36,683 nt of DNA. Source: Actinomycetes bacterium. GTDB taxonomy: Bacteria > Actinomycetota > Actinomycetes > S36-B12 > CAIYMF01. The notes under the pieces are model-generated. The model made no database searches, was not told the DNA's origin, and saw only the letters and a program-made list of their open reading frames with translations. The stretch's first letter is position 1. Every line of letters begins with the position of its first letter. Both the position numbers and the translations under genes were made by a program. The stretch is from the NCBI GenBank assembly GCA_021784035.1, contig JAJXTD010000005.1, positions 1 to 36,683 on the forward strand. Reading direction: 5' to 3'. Positions 2,571-25,190 of the stretch are shown here, one piece after another.

Positions 2571-4211
2571 TCAGAACCTGAGGACCTTGTACCCGGACGC
2601 CCAGTACCTGTCGGCGACGGTCACCAGGCGGTAGGCCCCGCGCGGGAGGAGCCGCTTGCCGAAGCTGTAGACGCCCTTCGCCGAGATGGCGGCGACGCCG
2701 ACCTTCACCATCCGCGTGCCCACCTTGCGATAGAGCACCACGGCGCCGCCCACGCGCGAGGCCGCGCCGTAGACGATGCGGGACCGCCCGCTCACGGCGA
2801 CGCGGGCGCTCACCACGGGGACGACCTTGACCAGCCTCGTGGCCGACATGCCGCGCTTCGTGAACGCGTCGCCGGGGAACAGCCAGCGGAACCACGTGTT
2901 CCGGGTGAGCGCCTTGGCGTAGTAGGCGTTGTAGTACCGCGAGCCGATGATGACGGGGTGCGCGCCGGACGTCGCCGCGGCGGTGGACCAGTGCACGCCG
3001 TCGATCGAGCGCTGCAGGTAGCCCCGGTCGACCTCCGCGGCCCGGCTCGCGGCGTAGGACAGGCCGGGCAGGCCGCCGTAGTAGTTGTAGGCCGAGTAGG
3101 CCACCTTGCGGCCGTAGGCCACGACGGCGGCCGACAGCGCGAGCGAGGGGTGCGCCGCCGCCGGGTTCACGACCGGCTGCAGTGCCGGCGGCAGGTTGGT
3201 GGACGGCGCGTAGCGGTACGTCGTCGCGCCGTCGGTCCGCGGTGCGCCGACCGGGATCGGGGTGTCCACGAGCGGGTCCGCGAGCGAGTACGCGCTGGTG
3301 GCGGCCGGCGTCACCGACGTGTCGTCCTTCCACGTCCACCACGTGCCGCTCGCGTCCTGGCGCAGGTCGTAGAAGCCGTTGAGCGTGGGCCGCGGCGTCA
3401 CCGTCCGGACCGTCGAGCCGTCGGTCGGCAGCGTGACCGAGACCCCGTTCGTCGGGGCGCCGGCGACGGCGGAGTCGTACTCGGCCCAGACCAGCGTGTC
3501 GGCGCCGTCCCACACGAACGTGCTGTTGCTGGGCTGGGTGCCGCCGGGGCCGTAGCCGATCTCGGCGTAGCTGCCGGCCGACCTGCCGGTCGCGACGGGG
3601 GCCGCGAGGACGCGGGCCGTGCGCGCCGTGGCGTCCGTGTACATCACGGCGGCACGGGAGCCGTCGGAGGAGACGGCGAGGCGCGCCACCGTCTCGCCGG
3701 CAGCGGGGGCGAACGCGGTGATCGCCGGCTGCAGGCCGCCCGCGGCGGCGTCGTACTCGTACAGCGTGCCGCGGTAGAACCAGAACGCCTTCGTGCCGTT
3801 GCCGGCGAGGACGGGGTTGGCATCCCAGAAGACGCTCAGCAGGATCGACGACACCGCCTGCGTCCCTGGGTCGCGCCGCAGGAGCACCAGGCCGAACGTC
3901 GAGTCGTACGCGTCGGTCGTGGGCGTGCCGGTGCGGGCCGCCACGAGCGCGATGTCGCCGTCGGGGGCCACGTCGTAGCCGTAGACCTGGTACCCGGCGG
4001 GCGTCAGCGCGTGCGGGCCGGCACCGAGCACGTCGGCGACCGCGAGGGTCCGGTTCGGGGCGGCCGCGGCCCCGGAGGTGCCGACGTAGCTGAACACGGG
4101 TGGTGCCGAGGCGGAGGCCGCGGACGCCGGCAGCAGCGAGATCGCGAGCGCGCCGGCGACGGCCAGCACCGCTCCGTGCGTCCAGCTGCGCCGGCTGCTG
4201 CGTGACGTCAT
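2571..4211 (-). CDS. secreted protein of unknown function, propeller-like with C-terminal beta domain
   Basis: A 546-aa protein with a Sec signal: basic start (MTSRSSRRSWTHG), hydrophobic core (AVLAVAGALAISLLP), then an Ala/Ser-rich cleavage zone ending near residue 36. The body is rich in Ser, Thr, Ala, Gly and Tyr and contains repeated strand-like blocks (for example DGDIALVAARTG, DGSRAAVMYTD), suggesting a beta-propeller of TolB/WD type; this is inference. The last ~80 residues resemble the Ig-like tail common on secreted actinobacterial proteins (GGAVVLYRKVG, GVYSFGKRL, GAYRLVTV). The ATG at 4211 is preceded by GGGACGAG and begins the signal peptide; the frame stays open far upstream but without support. 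I do not recognise the family. It is divergent from the tocopherol-cyclase-like gene. Confidence 0.8.
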   Translation of the reverse strand: MTSRSSRRSWTHGAVLAVAGALAISLLPASAASASAPPVFSYVGTSGAAAAPNRTLAVADVLGAGPHALTPAGYQVYGYDVAPDGDIALVAARTGTPTTDAYDSTFGLVLLRRDPGTQAVSSILLSVFWDANPVLAGNGTKAFWFYRGTLYEYDAAAGGLQPAITAFAPAAGETVARLAVSSDGSRAAVMYTDATARTARVLAAPVATGRSAGSYAEIGYGPGGTQPSNSTFVWDGADTLVWAEYDSAVAGAPTNGVSVTLPTDGSTVRTVTPRPTLNGFYDLRQDASGTWWTWKDDTSVTPAATSAYSLADPLVDTPIPVGAPRTDGATTYRYAPSTNLPPALQPVVNPAAAHPSLALSAAVVAYGRKVAYSAYNYYGGLPGLSYAASRAAEVDRGYLQRSIDGVHWSTAAATSGAHPVIIGSRYYNAYYAKALTRNTWFRWLFPGDAFTKRGMSATRLVKVVPVVSARVAVSGRSRIVYGAASRVGGAVVLYRKVGTRMVKVGVAAISAKGVYSFGKRLLPRGAYRLVTVADRYWASGYKVLRF

Positions 4212-6264: not shown

Positions 6265-7176
6265 TCAGCGCGGTGCCAGCGTGGTCAGCACCCGCTCGGC
6301 GTTCCCGAGCGCGACCGCGGGGTTCGCGGCGCCGACGGTGTCGTCGTCCCAGTTGAGGTCGAGGAACACCTCCGTCACCCCCTGCTCCTCGAGTGCGCCC
6401 AGGTCGGCGCGGATCTGGTCGGCGTCGCCCTGCAACGGGATCCGCGCCGCGCCCTCGGTCGGCGCCACGGTGAGCCGCACGACGCCGCGCACGACGAACC
6501 GCAATGCGGCCGGGTCGCGGCCGACCGCCGCGGCGGCCGCCCGCACGACCTCGATCGACGTCCCGATGGTCGTGAGATCGGTGCGGCTGCTGGAGATCCA
6601 GCCGTCGGCGATGCGGCCGACGCGCCGCAGCGCAGGCTCGGCGCCCCCGCCCATGAGGATCGGCGGGTGCGGCTCCTGCACGGGCTTCGGGTCGACGCGG
6701 GAGCGCGGCACGGCGTAGAACTCGCCCTGGTGCTCGACCGGGTCCGGGCCCCACACGGCCTTGAGGCACGCGACGGCGTCCTCGGCCCGCGCACCGCGAC
6801 GGTCCATGGGGACGCCGACCGCCGCGAACTCCTCGGCCGACCAGCCGAGGCCGATGCCGACGTCGAGCCGGCCCGCGGACAGGACGTCGATCGTCGTGAG
6901 CGCCTTCGCCAGCACGATCGGCGCGTAGTACGGCGCCATCACGACGGCGACGCCGAGCCTGATGCGCGACGTGACCGCGGCGGCGTAGGCCAGGGACGCC
7001 AGCGGGTCCAGGACCGAGTGGTAGGCCGCGCCCCAGTCGTCCTCGACCGGGTGCAGCAGTCGCTGGAAGGCCCATAGCGAGTCGAAGCCGAGCTCGTCGG
7101 CGCGGGTGGCGACGTGCCGCATCGCCTCCGGCGTGGCCCAGGTGCCGGACACAGGCAGGCCGAGACCGAGGCGCAC
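6265..7176 (-). CDS. LLM-class F420-dependent oxidoreductase
   Basis: A 303-aa member of the luciferase-like monooxygenase fold that in actinobacteria mostly uses F420. It begins RLGLGLPVSGTWATPEA; other motifs are DELGFDSLWAF, TSRIRLGVAVV and RLDVGIGLGWSAEEF, then PPILMGGGAEPALRRVGRIADGW in the C-terminal half. The GTG at 7176 is chosen because it puts the first beta strand at the N-terminus and lies 5 nt after the stop of the upstream VOC gene, so the two are probably cotranscribed. The substrate is unknown. FMN use instead of F420 is possible. Confidence 0.85.
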   Translation of the reverse strand: MRLGLGLPVSGTWATPEAMRHVATRADELGFDSLWAFQRLLHPVEDDWGAAYHSVLDPLASLAYAAAVTSRIRLGVAVVMAPYYAPIVLAKALTTIDVLSAGRLDVGIGLGWSAEEFAAVGVPMDRRGARAEDAVACLKAVWGPDPVEHQGEFYAVPRSRVDPKPVQEPHPPILMGGGAEPALRRVGRIADGWISSSRTDLTTIGTSIEVVRAAAAAVGRDPAALRFVVRGVVRLTVAPTEGAARIPLQGDADQIRADLGALEEQGVTEVFLDLNWDDDTVGAANPAVALGNAERVLTTLAPR

Positions 7177-7181
7177 GGCGG

Positions 7182-7700
7182 CTACTCCGCGTCCAGCCGG
7201 TGCCCGGCGAAGTACATGAGCGGGTCCGAGAGCAGCTCGATCTGGATGCCGTCGGGATCCCTGAGGTACATCGACTCGGGGATCCCGATGTCGGGTCCGG
7301 CGTAGGGGATGCCGGCGGCGTCGAGCCGGGCACGGAGCTCGTCCCACCGCTCCGGCGCGGCCGAGATCGCCACGTGCTGCACCGAGCCGATCGACTCCAC
7401 ACCCGGCTCGAGGCCGAGGCCGGGGAAGTCGAAGAAGCCGAGGAGCGTGCGGTTGCCGACGTCGAAGAACAGGTGCGACGAGCCGCGGTAGTCGCGGTTC
7501 TCGACGAGCTCGACGAGGGGGAAGCCGAGCAGCCCCTGGTAGAACTCGATCGTCCGCTCGACGTCGGAGCAGATGAGCGCCGCGTGGTGGATGCCACGAC
7601 CGGGCGAGGGGGGTCGCTCCGCCGGCGGGCGCAGGTAGCGGTCGCGGAGCTCCTGCCGGCGGGCCGCGAGCTCGCCGAGCTCGGCGTCCGTGGGGGGCAT
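7182..7700 (-). CDS. VOC family (glyoxalase/dioxygenase fold) protein
   Basis: A 172-aa protein with one vicinal-oxygen-chelate unit after a ~35-residue charged N-terminal helix (MPPTDAELGELAARRQELR). The metal ligands expected of the family are visible: H39 (GIHHAAL), H109 (VQHVAIS) and E155 (IQIELLSD). RDPDGIQIEL is the usual C-terminal motif. Start ATG at 7700 has GAAGGAGA about 5 nt upstream. It is first in a two-gene unit with the LLM oxidoreductase. The intact H/H/E site suggests a metal enzyme, but the substrate is not apparent. Confidence 0.85.
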   Translation of the reverse strand: MPPTDAELGELAARRQELRDRYLRPPAERPPSPGRGIHHAALICSDVERTIEFYQGLLGFPLVELVENRDYRGSSHLFFDVGNRTLLGFFDFPGLGLEPGVESIGSVQHVAISAAPERWDELRARLDAAGIPYAGPDIGIPESMYLRDPDGIQIELLSDPLMYFAGHRLDAE

Positions 7701-7737: not shown

Positions 7738-7823
7738 GCGCCGCCACCACGGTCCGGACCCGGGCTTGACCCGATCCGTCGCCGGCCGGTGGCGCGACTT
7801 GCGGAACAAGCCGGCGCCCTGGA

Positions 7824-7844
7824 TAGTTGACGATTGAACTACTC
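7824..7844. promoter_or_regulatory. operator-like palindrome before pirin, matching the MarR promoter
   Basis: TAGTTGACGATTGAACTA (7824-7841) is an imperfect palindrome (TAGTTnA/TnAACTA). With the following CTC it closely matches the sequence upstream of the divergent marR operon at 21998-22018 (17 of 23 aligned positions, including AACTACTC). It lies 21 nt before the pirin start, a likely repressor position. Binding by the MarR protein of this window is inference. Confidence 0.55.
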
Positions 7845-7864: not shown

Positions 7865-8839
7865 ATGCCCGCCGTCACCGTCGACGACATCACCGTCCTG
7901 CCGCGCGTCCGCCGGCCGGACCCCGGACTCGTCCGGCCGCGCCCGGTCGCGTCGGTGACGACCGCGCCGAGCGGGCTCGAGGGCGAGGGGTTCCCGGTGC
8001 GCCGGGCGTTCGCCGGCGTCGACCAGACGCTGCTCGACCCGTTCATCATGATGGACCAGATGGGCGAGGTGGAGTACGCGCCGGGCGAGCCCCGCGGCAC
8101 CGCGTGGCACCCGCACCGCGGGTTCGAGACGGTCACCTACATCATGGACGGCTCGTTCATCCACCAGGACTCCCACGGTGGCGGCGGCGTCATCACCAAC
8201 GGCGACACGCAGTGGATGACCGCCGGCAGCGGGCTGCTGCACATCGAGACGCCGCCGGAGCAGCTGGTCATGAGCGGCGGGCTGTTCCACGGCCTGCAGC
8301 TGTGGGTCAACCTCCCGCGCACCGCCAAGATGAACCCCCCGCGCTACCAGGACCTGCGCGCCACCGGCGTAGCCCTGCTCTCCAGCGACGACGGCGGCGC
8401 CCTGCTCCGCGTGATCGCCGGTGAGCTCGGCGGGCACGCCGGCCCGGGCTCGACGTACACCCCCATGACGATGGTGCACGCGACGATCAGCCCCGGCGCG
8501 TCGATGACGATCCCGTGGCGTCAGGACTTCAACGCCCTCGCCTACGTCCTGTCCGGCCGCGGCACGACGGGCGAGGAGCGCCGGCCGGTGCGCACCGGGC
8601 AGCTCGCCGTCTTCGGCCAGGGCGGCAGCATCACCATCGCCGCCGACGCGAGCCAGGACGCCAACGCCCCGGCGCTCGAGGTCGTGCTGCTCGGCGGCGA
8701 GCCGATCCGGGAGCCGGTCGCCTGGATGGGCCCGTTCGTCATGAACACCCAGCGCGAGCTGATGCAGGCCGTCGAGGACTACCAGCGCGGCCGCCTCGGC
8801 GTCGTCCCCGCCGACGGCATCCAGCCCTTCCACGCCTGA
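7865..8839 (+). CDS. pirin family protein
   Basis: A 324-aa bicupin of the pirin family. The metal site is complete: H82 and H84 in WHPHRGFET and H126/E128 in GLLHIET, matching the His/His/His/Glu set of pirins. Some bacterial pirins have quercetin dioxygenase activity and others are linked to redox stress. Ribosome binding site AGGAGG lies 4-5 nt before the ATG. The gene stands alone behind a palindrome that resembles the operator of the MarR regulator encoded 14 kb away, suggesting a shared electrophile- or quinone-type stress role. A longer, ~324-aa form is common in actinobacteria. Confidence 0.92.
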   Translation: MPAVTVDDITVLPRVRRPDPGLVRPRPVASVTTAPSGLEGEGFPVRRAFAGVDQTLLDPFIMMDQMGEVEYAPGEPRGTAWHPHRGFETVTYIMDGSFIHQDSHGGGGVITNGDTQWMTAGSGLLHIETPPEQLVMSGGLFHGLQLWVNLPRTAKMNPPRYQDLRATGVALLSSDDGGALLRVIAGELGGHAGPGSTYTPMTMVHATISPGASMTIPWRQDFNALAYVLSGRGTTGEERRPVRTGQLAVFGQGGSITIAADASQDANAPALEVVLLGGEPIREPVAWMGPFVMNTQRELMQAVEDYQRGRLGVVPADGIQPFHA

Positions 8840-20123: not shown

Positions 20124-20750
20124 TCATCCGGTACGGGCGCCGATCCAGTCCGCGAGCGCGCGGAGGGTCTCCGCGGTGATGCCGTGTCCTCCGGGGTCGC
20201 GTCGGGCCACCACGTCGGCCGCGGAGCCCTCGACGAGGTAGGACCACGTCCGGTCCAGCAGCTCGCGCGGGATCACCGTGTCGGAGTCGCCCTGCGCGAC
20301 GAACACGTGCGACCCGGCCAGGCGGTTCTCCGTCACGGGTACGCCGGCGTCGAAGGGCAGCGTGCCGTACAGGATCGCCGCGCCCGCGAAGCGGGACGGG
20401 TCGTCGAGCAGCAGTCCGCCGGCGAAGGCGGCGCCGCCGCTGAAGCCCACGAGCACGACCGGACGACCCTCCGGAGCCGCCTCGTCGAGCCAGGCGCGGA
20501 ACCAGTCCATCGTGTCGCGCAGCGACTCCGCCACCGGCCGCCCGATGCCTCGGTTGGCGAACCACGCGAAGCCGCCGCCCTCGGCGATCGGCGCGCGGAC
20601 CGCGGCGTACGCCGGCCCCTCGGGCAGCTCCGCCGCCAGGGTCAGGATCTCGCGCTCGCGCGACCCGCGGCCGTGGAGCAGGACGACGAGCGGCGCGGCC
20701 GGGTCAGCGGACCCGGCCGTCGCCACCACGGCGGGGGCGAAGGCGCTCAC
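20124..20750 (-). CDS. alpha/beta-hydrolase, carboxylesterase/phospholipase type (MhqD-like)
   Basis: A 208-aa cytosolic serine hydrolase. The catalytic triad is visible as S104 (GFSGG), D157 (QGDSD) and H189 (GGHGI); LLHGRGS near residues 24-30 forms the oxyanion region. The fold and length match the small phospholipase/carboxylesterase family that includes MhqD of Bacillus. GTG 20750 overlaps the stop of the VOC gene (GTGA), so it is translationally coupled as third gene of a MarR-linked operon. This set suggests hydrolysis of an ester or lactone formed during quinone or aromatic detoxification; that role is inference. Confidence 0.88.
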   Translation of the reverse strand: MSAFAPAVVATAGSADPAAPLVVLLHGRGSREREILTLAAELPEGPAYAAVRAPIAEGGGFAWFANRGIGRPVAESLRDTMDWFRAWLDEAAPEGRPVVLVGFSGGAAFAGGLLLDDPSRFAGAAILYGTLPFDAGVPVTENRLAGSHVFVAQGDSDTVIPRELLDRTWSYLVEGSAADVVARRDPGGHGITAETLRALADWIGARTG

Positions 20751-21259
20751 GACGCCGGACCGATCGGCCGCAGCTCGTCCGCCGTTCGGACGCCGCTCCA
20801 TCGCTCGACCTCGGCGCGCAGGTCGAGCGACTCGATCGGTGCGGCGTGCTCGAACTCGCCCCAGTCGGCCCGCGGGAGCATCCACTGCACCTCGAACTCG
20901 TTGTCGTCCGGGTCCTGCCCGTAGAGGCTCTTCGTGGCACCGTGGCTCGACTCGCCGGTGAGCGCGCCGAGCCGCGCCAGCGTGAGCTGCGCCTCGGCGA
21001 GCTCGTCGATGGTGTCGACCTGCCACGCCAGGTGGTAGAGGCCGATCCCGGGACGCTTCGGCCCGTACGACGCACCGATACCGAACAGCCCCAGGTCGTG
21101 GTGGTTCCCCGACCGGGGAAGACGCAGGAAGGCGGCGTTCGCCCTGGGTTCCCGGGCGATCACCTCCATCCCGAACGCCGCGCCGTAGAAGGCGATCGCG
21201 CGCTCGAGGTCGGCGACGAACAGCACGGCGTGGTTGAGCCGGACGGCGGCGATGGTCAT
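20747..21259 (-). CDS. VOC family protein, extradiol-dioxygenase/glyoxalase-like
   Basis: A 170-aa single-module vicinal-oxygen-chelate protein. The expected metal ligands H10 (LNHAVLF), H76 (LYHLAWQV) and E123 (EFEVQW) are all present, so it is likely a functional metal enzyme. GQDPDDNEFEVQ is the usual C-terminal motif. It has one module whereas MhqA/MhqO-type ring-cleavage enzymes have two. ATG 21259 has GAGAGG about 6 nt upstream. It lies second in an operon, between an F420/NADP reductase-like gene and a carboxylesterase, under a divergent MarR regulator. Confidence 0.88.
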   Translation of the reverse strand: MTIAAVRLNHAVLFVADLERAIAFYGAAFGMEVIAREPRANAAFLRLPRSGNHHDLGLFGIGASYGPKRPGIGLYHLAWQVDTIDELAEAQLTLARLGALTGESSHGATKSLYGQDPDDNEFEVQWMLPRADWGEFEHAAPIESLDLRAEVERWSGVRTADELRPIGPAS

Positions 21260-21348: not shown

Positions 21349-21984
21349 TCAGGACAGGGACGTCGGTCCGACCAGGGTCCAGGCGCTCTGCCAGGCCCAG
21401 CCGTTCGCGGCGTTGAGACCGATGTTGAGGAACGCGAGCTCCTCGAGCCCCCGCGCCTGGCGCAGCCCGCCGACGTCGAGGCTCTGGAACCCGAGCGAGG
21501 TGGCGAACTCGGCGACCTTGGCCTTGGCCTCGGCATCGTCGCCCGCGACGAGGACCGGCAGCGCACGACCGTCCTCGACGGGTGCGGCGTAGCGGCCGGC
21601 GAAGACGGTGTTGAACGCCTTGACGACGGGGGAGCCCGGGATGAGGGCCTGCAGGTCGCCGGCCGCCGAGACGCCCTCGATCACGAGGTCGCTGTATGTC
21701 GCGTTGAGCGGGTTGGTCGAGTCGACGACCGGGATGTCGGCAGCGGCGTCGCGGATCTCGGCGGCGACGTCGGCGATGGCGGCGTGCGGGACGGCGAGGA
21801 TGACGAGGTCCGCGCCCTCGACGGCGGCGGCGTTGGACGCGGCCCCGACGGCACCGGTGGCTCCGGCGACCTCGGCGGCCTTGCCGGGCGTGGCGGCGGA
21901 CAGGGTGACGGTGTGGCCCGCGGCGACGGCAGCACTGGCGAGCGAGGCGCCGACGTTCCCGGCACCGATGACGGCGATCTTCAT
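21349..21984 (-). CDS. NADPH-dependent F420 reductase-like protein
   Basis: A 211-aa Rossmann protein of the F420:NADP oxidoreductase-like family (PF03807). The nucleotide motif GAGNVGASLASA (residues 7-18) comes first, then VILAVPHAAIADV, and VVDSTNPLN and VVKAFNTVFAGRYA, all typical of the family. Members reduce F420 or NADP, or act as ferric or quinone reductases, so the exact electron partner is open. ATG 21984 has AAAGGAG about 6 nt upstream. It is the first gene of the minus-strand operon, directly behind a palindrome (GTTGA-N4-TCAAC) at 22000-22013 shared with the divergent marR. Confidence 0.88.
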   Translation of the reverse strand: MKIAVIGAGNVGASLASAAVAAGHTVTLSAATPGKAAEVAGATGAVGAASNAAAVEGADLVILAVPHAAIADVAAEIRDAAADIPVVDSTNPLNATYSDLVIEGVSAAGDLQALIPGSPVVKAFNTVFAGRYAAPVEDGRALPVLVAGDDAEAKAKVAEFATSLGFQSLDVGGLRQARGLEELAFLNIGLNAANGWAWQSAWTLVGPTSLS

Positions 21985-21997
21985 GATGGCTCCTTTG

Positions 21998-22020
21998 TGG
22001 TTGATCCTTCAACTACTCAA
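21998..22020. promoter_or_regulatory. probable MarR operator
   Basis: GTTGATCCTTCAAC (22000-22013) is a perfect palindrome with 5-nt arms and a 4-nt centre, followed by TACTCAA. It lies between the divergent reductase gene (start 21984) and marR (start 22080). A close relative lies before the pirin gene (7824-7844). Autoregulation by the MarR protein is the natural reading. Confidence 0.65.
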
Positions 22021-22079: not shown

Positions 22080-22532
22080 ATGACAAGGAACACCGTGCGG
22101 ATCGACCCCCTGGTGACGACGTTCGGCCGGCTCCTCGAGGCGACCCACCGCCTCGAGGACCTGCTCGGCCGCGACCTCGAATCGACAAGCGACCTGACCA
22201 TCACCACGTTCGAGGTGCTTCTCCGGCTGTCGCGCAGCCCGGACGGTGCGCTGACGATGGGTGAGCTCTCCGACCAGCTGGTGCTCACCACGGGCGGCGT
22301 CACGCGGCTCGTGGACCGGATGACCGCGGCCGGCTACCTCGAGCGCCGGCCCTGCGCCACCGACCGGCGCGTCCTGTACGCCGCCATCACGCCCGCCGGC
22401 CGTGCGGCGCTCGCACCGGCCCTGCGCCACCACGCCGCGATGCTGCACGACGTCTTCGCCGGCTTCTCCCCCACGGACCTGGCCCGGCTCGACACGCTCC
22501 TCGACCGGCTCCGCGACGTCACCCGGGCGTGA
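22080..22532 (+). CDS. MarR family transcriptional regulator
   Basis: A 150-aa winged-helix repressor of the MarR family. The DNA-binding domain spans about residues 40-107 (ALTMGELSDQLVLTTGGVTRLVDRM as helix-turn-helix, then the wing with ATDRRV, the conserved D-R-R). There is a single cysteine, C92, at the tip of the wing; a redox role is conceivable but unproven. It is divergent from a reductase-VOC-esterase operon, across a palindrome that should be its operator. The gene set recalls MhqR-regulated quinone detoxification in Bacillus and Staphylococcus, although the operator sequence differs. Confidence 0.92.
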   Translation: MTRNTVRIDPLVTTFGRLLEATHRLEDLLGRDLESTSDLTITTFEVLLRLSRSPDGALTMGELSDQLVLTTGGVTRLVDRMTAAGYLERRPCATDRRVLYAAITPAGRAALAPALRHHAAMLHDVFAGFSPTDLARLDTLLDRLRDVTRA

Positions 22533-22656: not shown

Positions 22657-23709
22657 GTGGCCGAGGTCTCCCCGCGCCGCCGCGCGGCCGGCCGTGTCGC
22701 CGTCGCCGTGTGGGTCGTCGGGCTCGTCTGGTTCTGCATCACGCAAGGCTTCCCGTTCGACCGCGCGAACCAGACGCTCTGGATCCTGTCCGGGCTGGTG
22801 GCCGCGACCATCGGCCGCCCGCTGGGGTCGGTGAAGCGCATCTTCCTCGACTGGATCCCGTTCATCCTCGTGCTCTACCTGTACGACTACTCGCGCCACC
22901 TCGCGGTGCTGCTCGGCCGCCCGATCCTCGAGACCTCGCAGATCAACTGGGACACCACGCTCTTCCTCGGCACGACCCCCGTCGTCTGGCTGCAGCAGCA
23001 CTTCTACGACCCCTTCGCGACGCACTGGTACGACTCTGTCGCGGCGGTGGTCTACGTCAGCCACTTCATCGCGGTGTGGGCCATCGCCGCCGTGCTCTAC
23101 ATGCGCAACCGGCGGGAGTGGTTCCTGTGGGCCCGGGCGCTGGTGGTCCTGTCCTTCGCCGGGCTGGTCACGTTCGCGATCATGCCGTCCGCGCCGCCGT
23201 GGTACGCCGCCCGCGACGGCTACCTCCCGCCGATCGACCGCATCGCCACGCGCGGCCTCGACGGCCTCGGCATCCACTGGGCTCGCCAGCTCATCGACGG
23301 TGGTGCCGCGGTGAGCAACGACGTCGCCGCGATCCCCAGCCTGCACACGGGTTTCGCGATCCTCATCGCTGTCTGGTTCTACCCGCGGATCCCGAAGCGG
23401 CACCGCGCGTGGGGCCGGCCGCTGCTCGTGGCCTATCCGATCGTCATGCTCCTCGTGCTGGTCTACGGCGGCGAGCACTATGTCGTCGACGGGCTCATCG
23501 GCGCGGTCTACGTGTTCGCGGTCGTCTACGGCCTCAAGCTCTGGGACCGCCGACGGGCCCGCGCCTCCCTCGACGACGAGGCCGCGGCGCTCGAGGCGGC
23601 CTCGTCGTCGGAGCACGTCTCGGTGGACCTCGAGACCGCCGGCGCCGTCGAGGGCGTGGCGCTGCCGCACGACGCGCTGCCGCGCTCCGCCGATCCGCTC
23701 GACCCCTGA
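22657..23709 (+). CDS. PAP2-superfamily membrane protein (inositolphosphotransferase/Aur1-like)
   Basis: A ~350-aa integral membrane protein with about six or seven spans (AVAVWVVGLVWFCI, FILVLYLYDY, AVVYVSHFIAVWAIAAVLYM, ALVVLSFAGLVTFAIM, LLVAYPIVMLLVLVYGG, GAVYVFAVVYG). The PAP2 catalytic motifs are SLHTG (H230) and GGEHYVVDG (H274, D278), facing outside the membrane in this family. Its form matches the PAP2_3 group that includes inositol phosphotransferases, so transfer of a phosphoinositol or similar lipid head group is plausible. The start is uncertain: GTG 22657 is used, but GGGAACGGAG at 22610-22620 hints at translation beginning slightly upstream. The decarboxylase gene follows after 8 nt. 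Confidence 0.85.
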   Translation: MAEVSPRRRAAGRVAVAVWVVGLVWFCITQGFPFDRANQTLWILSGLVAATIGRPLGSVKRIFLDWIPFILVLYLYDYSRHLAVLLGRPILETSQINWDTTLFLGTTPVVWLQQHFYDPFATHWYDSVAAVVYVSHFIAVWAIAAVLYMRNRREWFLWARALVVLSFAGLVTFAIMPSAPPWYAARDGYLPPIDRIATRGLDGLGIHWARQLIDGGAAVSNDVAAIPSLHTGFAILIAVWFYPRIPKRHRAWGRPLLVAYPIVMLLVLVYGGEHYVVDGLIGAVYVFAVVYGLKLWDRRRARASLDDEAAALEAASSSEHVSVDLETAGAVEGVALPHDALPRSADPLDP

Positions 23710-23717
23710 CGCGCGGC

Positions 23718-25190
23718 ATGACGCCGGACAACCCCCGGGTGGGCGACCAGGACTCCTCGCCGTACGCCGACGCCCTGCTCGCGTTCGCCGCTCGCGGCCG
23801 ATCGCGCTTCACGACGCCGGGCCACCACGGCGATCCCGACGGCCAGCCGCTGATCGCCGCGATGCTCGGCGAGGGCGTCCTGTCGCTCGACGTCCAGCCG
23901 ACGGTCGAGGGCATCGACCACGGGCCGGGCAACCCGATGCAGCGGTCGCTGGACCTCGCGGCCCGGGCGTGGGGCGCGCGCCGCACGTGGTTCCTGTCCA
24001 ACGGGTCGAGCCAGGGCAATCTGACCGCCTGCCTCGCGCTCGCGGGACTCGGGGACACGATCGTGGCGCAGCGCAGCGTGCACTCGTCCGTCGTCGACGG
24101 CCTCATGCTCTCCGGCCTCGCCGCCGGGTTCGTCCGGCCGACCGTCGACCACTCGCTCGGCATCGCGCACGGCGTGACGCCGGAGTCGCTCGACGCCGCC
24201 CTCGCGGCGCACCCGGACGCCGTCGCCGCGTTCGTCGTGACCCCGTCGTACTTCGGCGCCTGCGCCGACGTCGCAGCGCTGGCCGACGTCGCGCACCGGC
24301 GCGGCGCGGCCCTCGTCGTCGACGAGGCGTGGGGCGCGCACTTCGGCTTCCATCCGGGCCTGCCGGTGAACGCCGTCCGGCTGGGGGCCGACGTCGTCAT
24401 CGCCTCGATGCACAAGCTCGGCGGGTCGCTCGGCCAGACGGCGCTGCTCCACGTCGGCCACGGTCCGCTGGCACAGCGCCTCGAGCCGCTGCTCGAGCGG
24501 GCGTTCCGCTCGATGCAGTCGACGTCGGAGTCCTCGGTGCTGCTCGCGTCCCTCGACCTGGCGCGCCGGCAGATCGCGGTGCGCGGCGGGGAGACGATCG
24601 GGCGCAGCCTCGCGTCGGCGGCCCGGCTCCGCGAGCGCGTGGAGTCCGACGGCCGGTTCCGCGACGCCACCCCGCGCATCGCGGCGTTCCCCGACGTCGT
24701 CGGCGTCGACCCCCTGCGCGTCGTGGTCGACGTGCGCAGCGGCGGGATCAGCGGGCACGATGCACGGTCGCTGCTGTTCCAGGAGCTGGGTCACCACGTG
24801 GAGATGTCCACCGACGACGTGATCGTCGCGATCGTCGGTGCGGGCACCGCGCCCGACCCGGACGCGCTGGCGGACGCCCTGCTGCGGCTGCCCGAGCTGC
24901 CGGCGCCGACACGGCACCGCATCGAGCTGCCCGACCCCGGGCCGCGCCGGATGACCGTTCGGGAGGCGTGGTTCGCGCCCACCGAGGTCGTCGCGGCCGA
25001 CGCGGCGGTGGGCCGCGTGTCGGCCGACAGCGTCGCCGCCTACCCCCCGGGGATCCCGAACCTGATGCCCGGCGAGGAGATCACCGAGCAGACCCTGGAG
25101 TTCCTGCGCGAGACCGCCGCCGCACCCTTCGGCTGGGTGCGCGGCGCCCTCGACGACGACGTGTCGCACGTGCGCGTCGTGGCGCGCTGA
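23718..25190 (+). CDS. Orn/Lys/Arg decarboxylase-family PLP enzyme
   Basis: A 490-aa fold-type I PLP enzyme of the Orn/Lys/Arg decarboxylase family. The N-terminus TTPGHHGDPDGQPL is the family signature, SNGSSQGN binds phosphate, DEAWGAHFGFHPGLP carries the PLP-contacting Asp, and the Schiff-base lysine is K233 (SMHKLGGS). It lacks the N-terminal wing domain of the large inducible decarboxylases and resembles the short Gram-positive type, which makes cadaverine, agmatine or related amines. The C-terminal domain ends with AYPPGIPNLMPGEEIT. The ATG 23718 lies 8 nt after the PAP2 stop, so the two are likely cotranscribed. The substrate amino acid is not evident. Confidence 0.93.
   Translation: MTPDNPRVGDQDSSPYADALLAFAARGRSRFTTPGHHGDPDGQPLIAAMLGEGVLSLDVQPTVEGIDHGPGNPMQRSLDLAARAWGARRTWFLSNGSSQGNLTACLALAGLGDTIVAQRSVHSSVVDGLMLSGLAAGFVRPTVDHSLGIAHGVTPESLDAALAAHPDAVAAFVVTPSYFGACADVAALADVAHRRGAALVVDEAWGAHFGFHPGLPVNAVRLGADVVIASMHKLGGSLGQTALLHVGHGPLAQRLEPLLERAFRSMQSTSESSVLLASLDLARRQIAVRGGETIGRSLASAARLRERVESDGRFRDATPRIAAFPDVVGVDPLRVVVDVRSGGISGHDARSLLFQELGHHVEMSTDDVIVAIVGAGTAPDPDALADALLRLPELPAPTRHRIELPDPGPRRMTVREAWFAPTEVVAADAAVGRVSADSVAAYPPGIPNLMPGEEITEQTLEFLRETAAAPFGWVRGALDDDVSHVRVVAR

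Follow-up and report, generated by a model that had tools for sequence, protein, structure and literature searches.

Among the described MarR-type regulators, SCO3205 and AbsC (SCO5405) from Streptomyces coelicolor (PDB 3ZPL and 3ZMD, respectively) are the closest known counterparts of the system analyzed herein. SCO3205 has the operator consensus TTnAAnnnTCAA, contacts the bases via Arg72, Ser73, and His77, and tolerates a C to A change in TCAA; the residues binding salicylate in AbsC are Trp18 and His120 (PMC3737563). That paper makes no mention of pirin, its tested targets being other genes. A second comparable system is the quinone repressor MhqR of Bacillus and Staphylococcus, a MarR protein encoded beside a dioxygenase-fold gene and the esterase gene mhqD, with a quinone reductase in its wider regulon (PMC6798810), and a third is RosR from Corynebacterium glutamicum, a regulator of the oxidative stress response that also belongs to the MarR type; its autoregulatory site, TAGGTGATATGACAACAC, has a similar layout (PMC7764795). 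Two other regulators of C. glutamicum were considered and set aside, as AcsR has a different operator (AATTTA-N-TAAATT) and the second repeat of AesR (CGACTA-N7-TAGTTG) is only loosely similar. On the promoter side, GGAAC/T-N18-GTT is the published consensus of the extracytoplasmic function (ECF) sigma factors SigR/SigH, and GGAAC is also read by SigE in Corynebacterium (PMC3489674; PMC10012870). In the SigR/SigH literature searched, pirin was not found as a target, and none of the papers searched connected pirin with SigR or an AbsC-type MarR, an absence that is weak evidence; a literature search with the operator letters returned only unrelated matches, apparently primer lists.

In the window, i.e., the whole 36.7-kb stretch of DNA analyzed in this study, two palindromes related to these operators were located in the following places:

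7824..7841, no strand assigned: putative pirin operator TAGTTGACGATTGAACTA, with the minus-strand core TTCAATCGTCAA at 7827-7838; kept upstream of the pirin orthologs of 105/118 genomes
7865..8839, plus strand: pirin gene, 324 aa; Pfam PF02678 (Pirin, 1.4e-30) and PF05726 (Pirin_C, 7e-29)
21998..22015, no strand assigned: putative operator lying between marR and the divergent operon, TGGTTGATCCTTCAACTA, with the minus-strand core TTGAAGGATCAA at 22001-22012

As pointed out in the initial annotation, the sequences at 7824-7844 and 21998-22018 are alike, 16 of the 21 bases being identical, including all of the last eight (AACTACTC). A search of the 36.7-kb window for TAGTTGANNNNTCAACTA with up to three mismatches retrieved these two sites only, with one mismatch apiece (0.05 expected in shuffles), and the published, experimentally derived SCO3205 consensus TTnAAnnnTCAA was matched exactly on the minus strand at 7827-7838 and 22001-22012 and nowhere else in the whole window (0.01 expected). 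A 20-bp matrix trained on the pirin sites of the window's own family gave 33 for the pirin site and 26 for the marR site, the next best score in the window being -2.5. Both sites belong to the class TAGTTGA-N4-TCAACTA, which no third place in the window fits, and they differ in one inner half (GTTGA..TGAAC for pirin and GTTGA..TCAAC for marR). The likeness of the two palindromes is thus real and far above chance, and their assignment to one operator class is supported. In the genome as a whole, the palindrome with up to two mismatches occurs at five sites (none in the reversed control); at three mismatches the signal came near the control (nine sites vs. five), and such matches were used only where relatives support them, namely for the second MarR gene (MarR2) and the proximal wrbA site.

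The pirin site proved to be widely conserved. It precedes the pirin ortholog in 17/17 genomes of the window's family at a variable distance from the ATG; the sites of G003 and G004 are degenerate, and the pirin gene of G014 is split across two contigs. Order-wide, it was detected in 105 of 118 pirin upstream regions by a matrix trained on the family sites, with the 99.9th percentile of shuffled upstream regions as the cut-off. The consensus TTnAAnnnTCAA itself was present within the proximal 100 bp of pirin in 55/118 genomes, while the region 150-250 bp upstream held none in 114 genomes. Sites in the window's family often depart in one half from the preference of SCO3205, with G in place of its C (or the tolerated A), and many pirin operators of family f5 read TAAA. 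Because the site stands upstream of the pirin ortholog in so large a share of the order, we regard it as a conserved operator, and the palindrome is very likely a genuine regulatory switch kept in more than 100 related bacteria.

The promoter of pirin also matches the SigR/SigH-type pattern GGAAT/C-N18-19-GTT at 7803-7828, giving two putative elements:

7803..7807, plus strand: putative -35 element GGAAC of a SigR/SigH/SigE-type promoter (GGAAC-N18-GTT; N18 in 28/118 pirin promoters vs. 0.2 expected)
7826..7828, plus strand: GTT as the putative -10 element of this promoter, located within the left half of the operator (consensus from PMC10012870)

The window holds two matches to GGAAC/T-N18-19-GTT against 0.42 expected, so a single match means little, and the support for the element comes instead from the comparison across genomes, in which GGAA[TC]-N18-GTT showed a sharp peak at N18, the next spacing, N11, occurring in five genomes and every remaining one in three or fewer. 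The upstream regions of MarR2 showed no spacing peak for this element. Since the GTT lies within the operator in G000, this peak could be taken to mean that the conserved sequence is mainly a core promoter, with GTTGA as its SigR/SigH-type -10 region, and no operator at all. This we hold to be very improbable, as the second half (TGAACTA, TCAACTA, or TAAACTA) is conserved as well, most genomes lacking GGAAT-N18-GTT keep the site, and the genomes of family f4 have the sigma element before pirin with little or no operator. A true operator overlapping a stress promoter is therefore preferred, and from the position of the -10 GTT a bound MarR dimer would be expected to block the polymerase. On the minus strand, divergent from pirin and sharing its upstream region, lie a glyoxalase-fold gene (7182-7700) and a gene for an F420-dependent LLM oxidoreductase (TIGR03619, approximately 6265-7176), and the operator could affect transcription in both directions.

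The second palindrome lies between the MarR gene of the window (hereafter MarR1) and a divergent operon:

22080..22532, plus strand: MarR1 gene, 150 aa; Pfam MarR_2 (1e-15)
21349..21984, minus strand: divergent gene 1, NADPH/F420 reductase-like; Pfam F420_oxidored (1.9e-16); ribosome site and start identified, the operator ending 13 bp upstream of the ATG
20747..21259, minus strand: divergent gene 2, glyoxalase/extradiol dioxygenase fold; Pfam PF00903 (9.4e-15)
20124..20747, minus strand: divergent gene 3, esterase; Pfam PF02230 (1.8e-9); best NCBIfam NF047577 (MhqD, 1.1e-12)

This arrangement recalls that of MhqR, but the MhqR operator TATCTCGAA-aTCGAaATA is unlike the TAGTTGA-N4-TCAACTA sites found here, and the esterase reached only 48 bits against the MhqD model NF047577, far below its cut-off of 325; the glyoxalase-fold protein likewise stayed under every equivalog cut-off. 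A contig search with MarR1 returned only a distant Acetobacteraceae protein. Downstream of marR is a long ORF (22710-25190) with an Orn/Lys/Arg decarboxylase domain.

The initial annotation had proposed that the likeness of the two sites reflects control of both by one regulator, the MarR of the window. The shared operator class, with no further matches in the window, and the site at the MarR1 promoter in G000 and G007, weaker in G011, are in line with that proposal. Close orthologs of MarR1, however, were detected in just 4/166 genomes of the order vs. 105/118 for the pirin operator, which makes it doubtful as the pirin regulator, and one of its carriers, G008, has no good site before MarR1. 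Its best PDB match (7e-12) is another MarR, neither AbsC nor SCO3205, and its recognition helix reads TTGGVT where SCO3205 has Arg72, Ser73, and His77, so that the base-contact residues are not kept, and the helix differs from that of MarR2. Moreover, the asymmetry of the pirin site is that of the MarR2 sites rather than of the sites before MarR1 and its other candidate target, the DoxX gene. We thus consider it distinctly improbable that MarR1 governs pirin as well as its own promoter; what stood of the proposal is the common operator class and the fit to a quinone/redox regulon described below, and the case illustrates how proximity within one window can lead to the choice of the wrong paralog.

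A better candidate for the pirin regulator was identified elsewhere in the genome:

contig C240, 19430-19912, minus strand: MarR2, second MarR gene, AbsC/SCO3205 group

The closest solved structures to MarR2 are AbsC (3zmd, 6.8e-39) and SCO3205 (3zpl, 2.1e-36). Its aligned orthologs carry the helix RSRLSH shared with these proteins (RSRLTH in three), all the matches to Arg72, Ser73, and His77 being kept, and MarR2 also keeps the Trp/His pocket pair. MarR2 is present in 105/166 genomes of the order, and the pirin operator was found in 79/81 genomes with MarR2 as compared with 26/37 lacking it (Fisher 4e-5, or 8e-5 when the window's family is left out); this co-occurrence covers only genomes with a readable pirin upstream region, is inflated by shared ancestry, and is blurred by incomplete genomes in the group lacking MarR2. 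In most family genomes, the promoter of MarR2 has a related site approximately 25 bp upstream of the ATG, and TTTCAA[CT] was present in 43/105 MarR2 upstream regions vs. 2.9 expected. In the window, a matrix built from 35 MarR2 operators of other families, picked solely by TTTCAAN near the start, scored the pirin site at 19.7, the marR1 site at 14.3, and the next best place at -1.2; as it accepts the marR1 site too, it does not sharply separate the regulators. Most MarR2 and pirin sites of the window's family have one asymmetric half in common (TTGA on one side, [CT]GAAC on the other), unlike the sites of MarR1 and DoxX, which show the symmetric form GTTGA-N4-TCAAC. The covariation of sites suggested in the initial annotation was looked for between the pirin and MarR2 sites, and no sharp base-for-base covariation was demonstrable beyond a few genera. 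There are also exceptions to the association: in G007, G013 (97% complete), G016, and G017, the pirin operator is present but no close MarR2 was detected; some MarR2 genes lack a recognizable operator (e.g., in G005, G011, and most of genus g17); and weak scores were obtained for the MarR2 site in several family genomes. The genome of the window is 88.6% complete, and thus another regulator may be missing from it. Taking the distribution and the DNA-contact residues together, the regulator of pirin is probably MarR2 rather than the neighboring MarR1.

Further sites of the class precede redox genes of the same genome. The gene for WrbA, an NAD(P)H:quinone oxidoreductase on contig C134 (NF002999 and TIGR01755 above cut-off), has two tandem sites upstream (3072-3113), the distal of which, along with its spacer, is the same in G000, G008, and G009. 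A DoxX gene on C124 (PF07681, 7e-22) and MarR2 itself on C240 also have operator-class sites upstream. DoxX occurs in all four MarR1 genomes and in one other of the 17 (hypergeometric 0.002), a confinement which suggests DoxX rather than pirin as the distant target of MarR1. MarR1 probably uses the same operator class and serves its own divergent operon plus the DoxX gene; in the window's genome, it may also cross-bind at the pirin site. The quinone/redox regulon envisaged in the initial annotation agrees with these data: the motif before WrbA and DoxX fits such a stress regulon, and the esterase of the divergent operon is MhqD-like, though below the cut-off.

The partition of targets between MarR1 and MarR2 might be less strict, with both proteins (and elsewhere the MarR3 paralogs) binding all the operators in a paralog network of overlapping specificity. 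Same-class sites do stand before many genes of all three paralog groups, and the SCO3205 study makes a case for overlapping regulons of SCO3205, AbsC, and SCO7727 (PMC3737563). The half-site details, on the other hand, differ between the MarR1/DoxX and the MarR2/pirin sites, and MarR1 is without the SCO3205 base-contact residues; shared control of this kind is consequently viewed as unlikely, albeit not negligible.

The explanation that we favor as a whole, and judge to be rather probable, is that MarR2 represses pirin via an operator placed over a stress promoter and is released by a phenol- or quinone-like ligand, with MarR1 attending to its own operon and DoxX. The pirin site would be an 18-bp MarR-type operator covering the -10 region of a SigR/SigH-type promoter, to which a dimer of MarR2, as an AbsC/SCO3205-type repressor, would bind so as to block RNA polymerase; MarR2 would similarly repress itself and WrbA. 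A phenolic or quinone-like ligand filling the salicylate-type pocket would cause the repressor to leave, whereupon pirin would be co-expressed with WrbA and further redox genes bearing the same operator, transcription of pirin being presumably driven at least in part by a stress sigma factor. MarR1, a relative of narrow distribution, would use this operator class for DoxX and for the divergent operon of reductase, dioxygenase-fold, and esterase genes; cross-talk between it and MarR2 may occur. As a more tentative proposal, which we regard as possible rather than probable, pirin might be a core target, ancestral and order-wide, of a repressor of the AbsC/SCO3205 type; in many lineages a SigR-type sigma factor would act on it as well, at one overlapping promoter element, forming an AND gate that demands both a thiol-stress sigma factor and the loss of the phenol/quinone-sensing repressor. 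If so, the poorly understood bacterial pirins would be tied to quinone/electrophile stress. Since the physiological role of these proteins is unsettled, the deeply conserved operator, the stress-sigma element, and a candidate repressor that can be named and has relatives of solved structure provide a direct handle on when pirin is made, with WrbA and DoxX as its predicted partners.

One further one-mismatch operator (C26:9508-9525 in G000) is accompanied by a GGAAT-N18-GCT element before a 26-codon ORF with no gene found behind it; an origin as the promoter of a pirin pseudogene was rejected, the ORF being unlike the start of this pirin. In related genomes, the MarR3 paralogs have two same-class operators before their own genes, which suggests repeated duplication of the regulator together with its operator.
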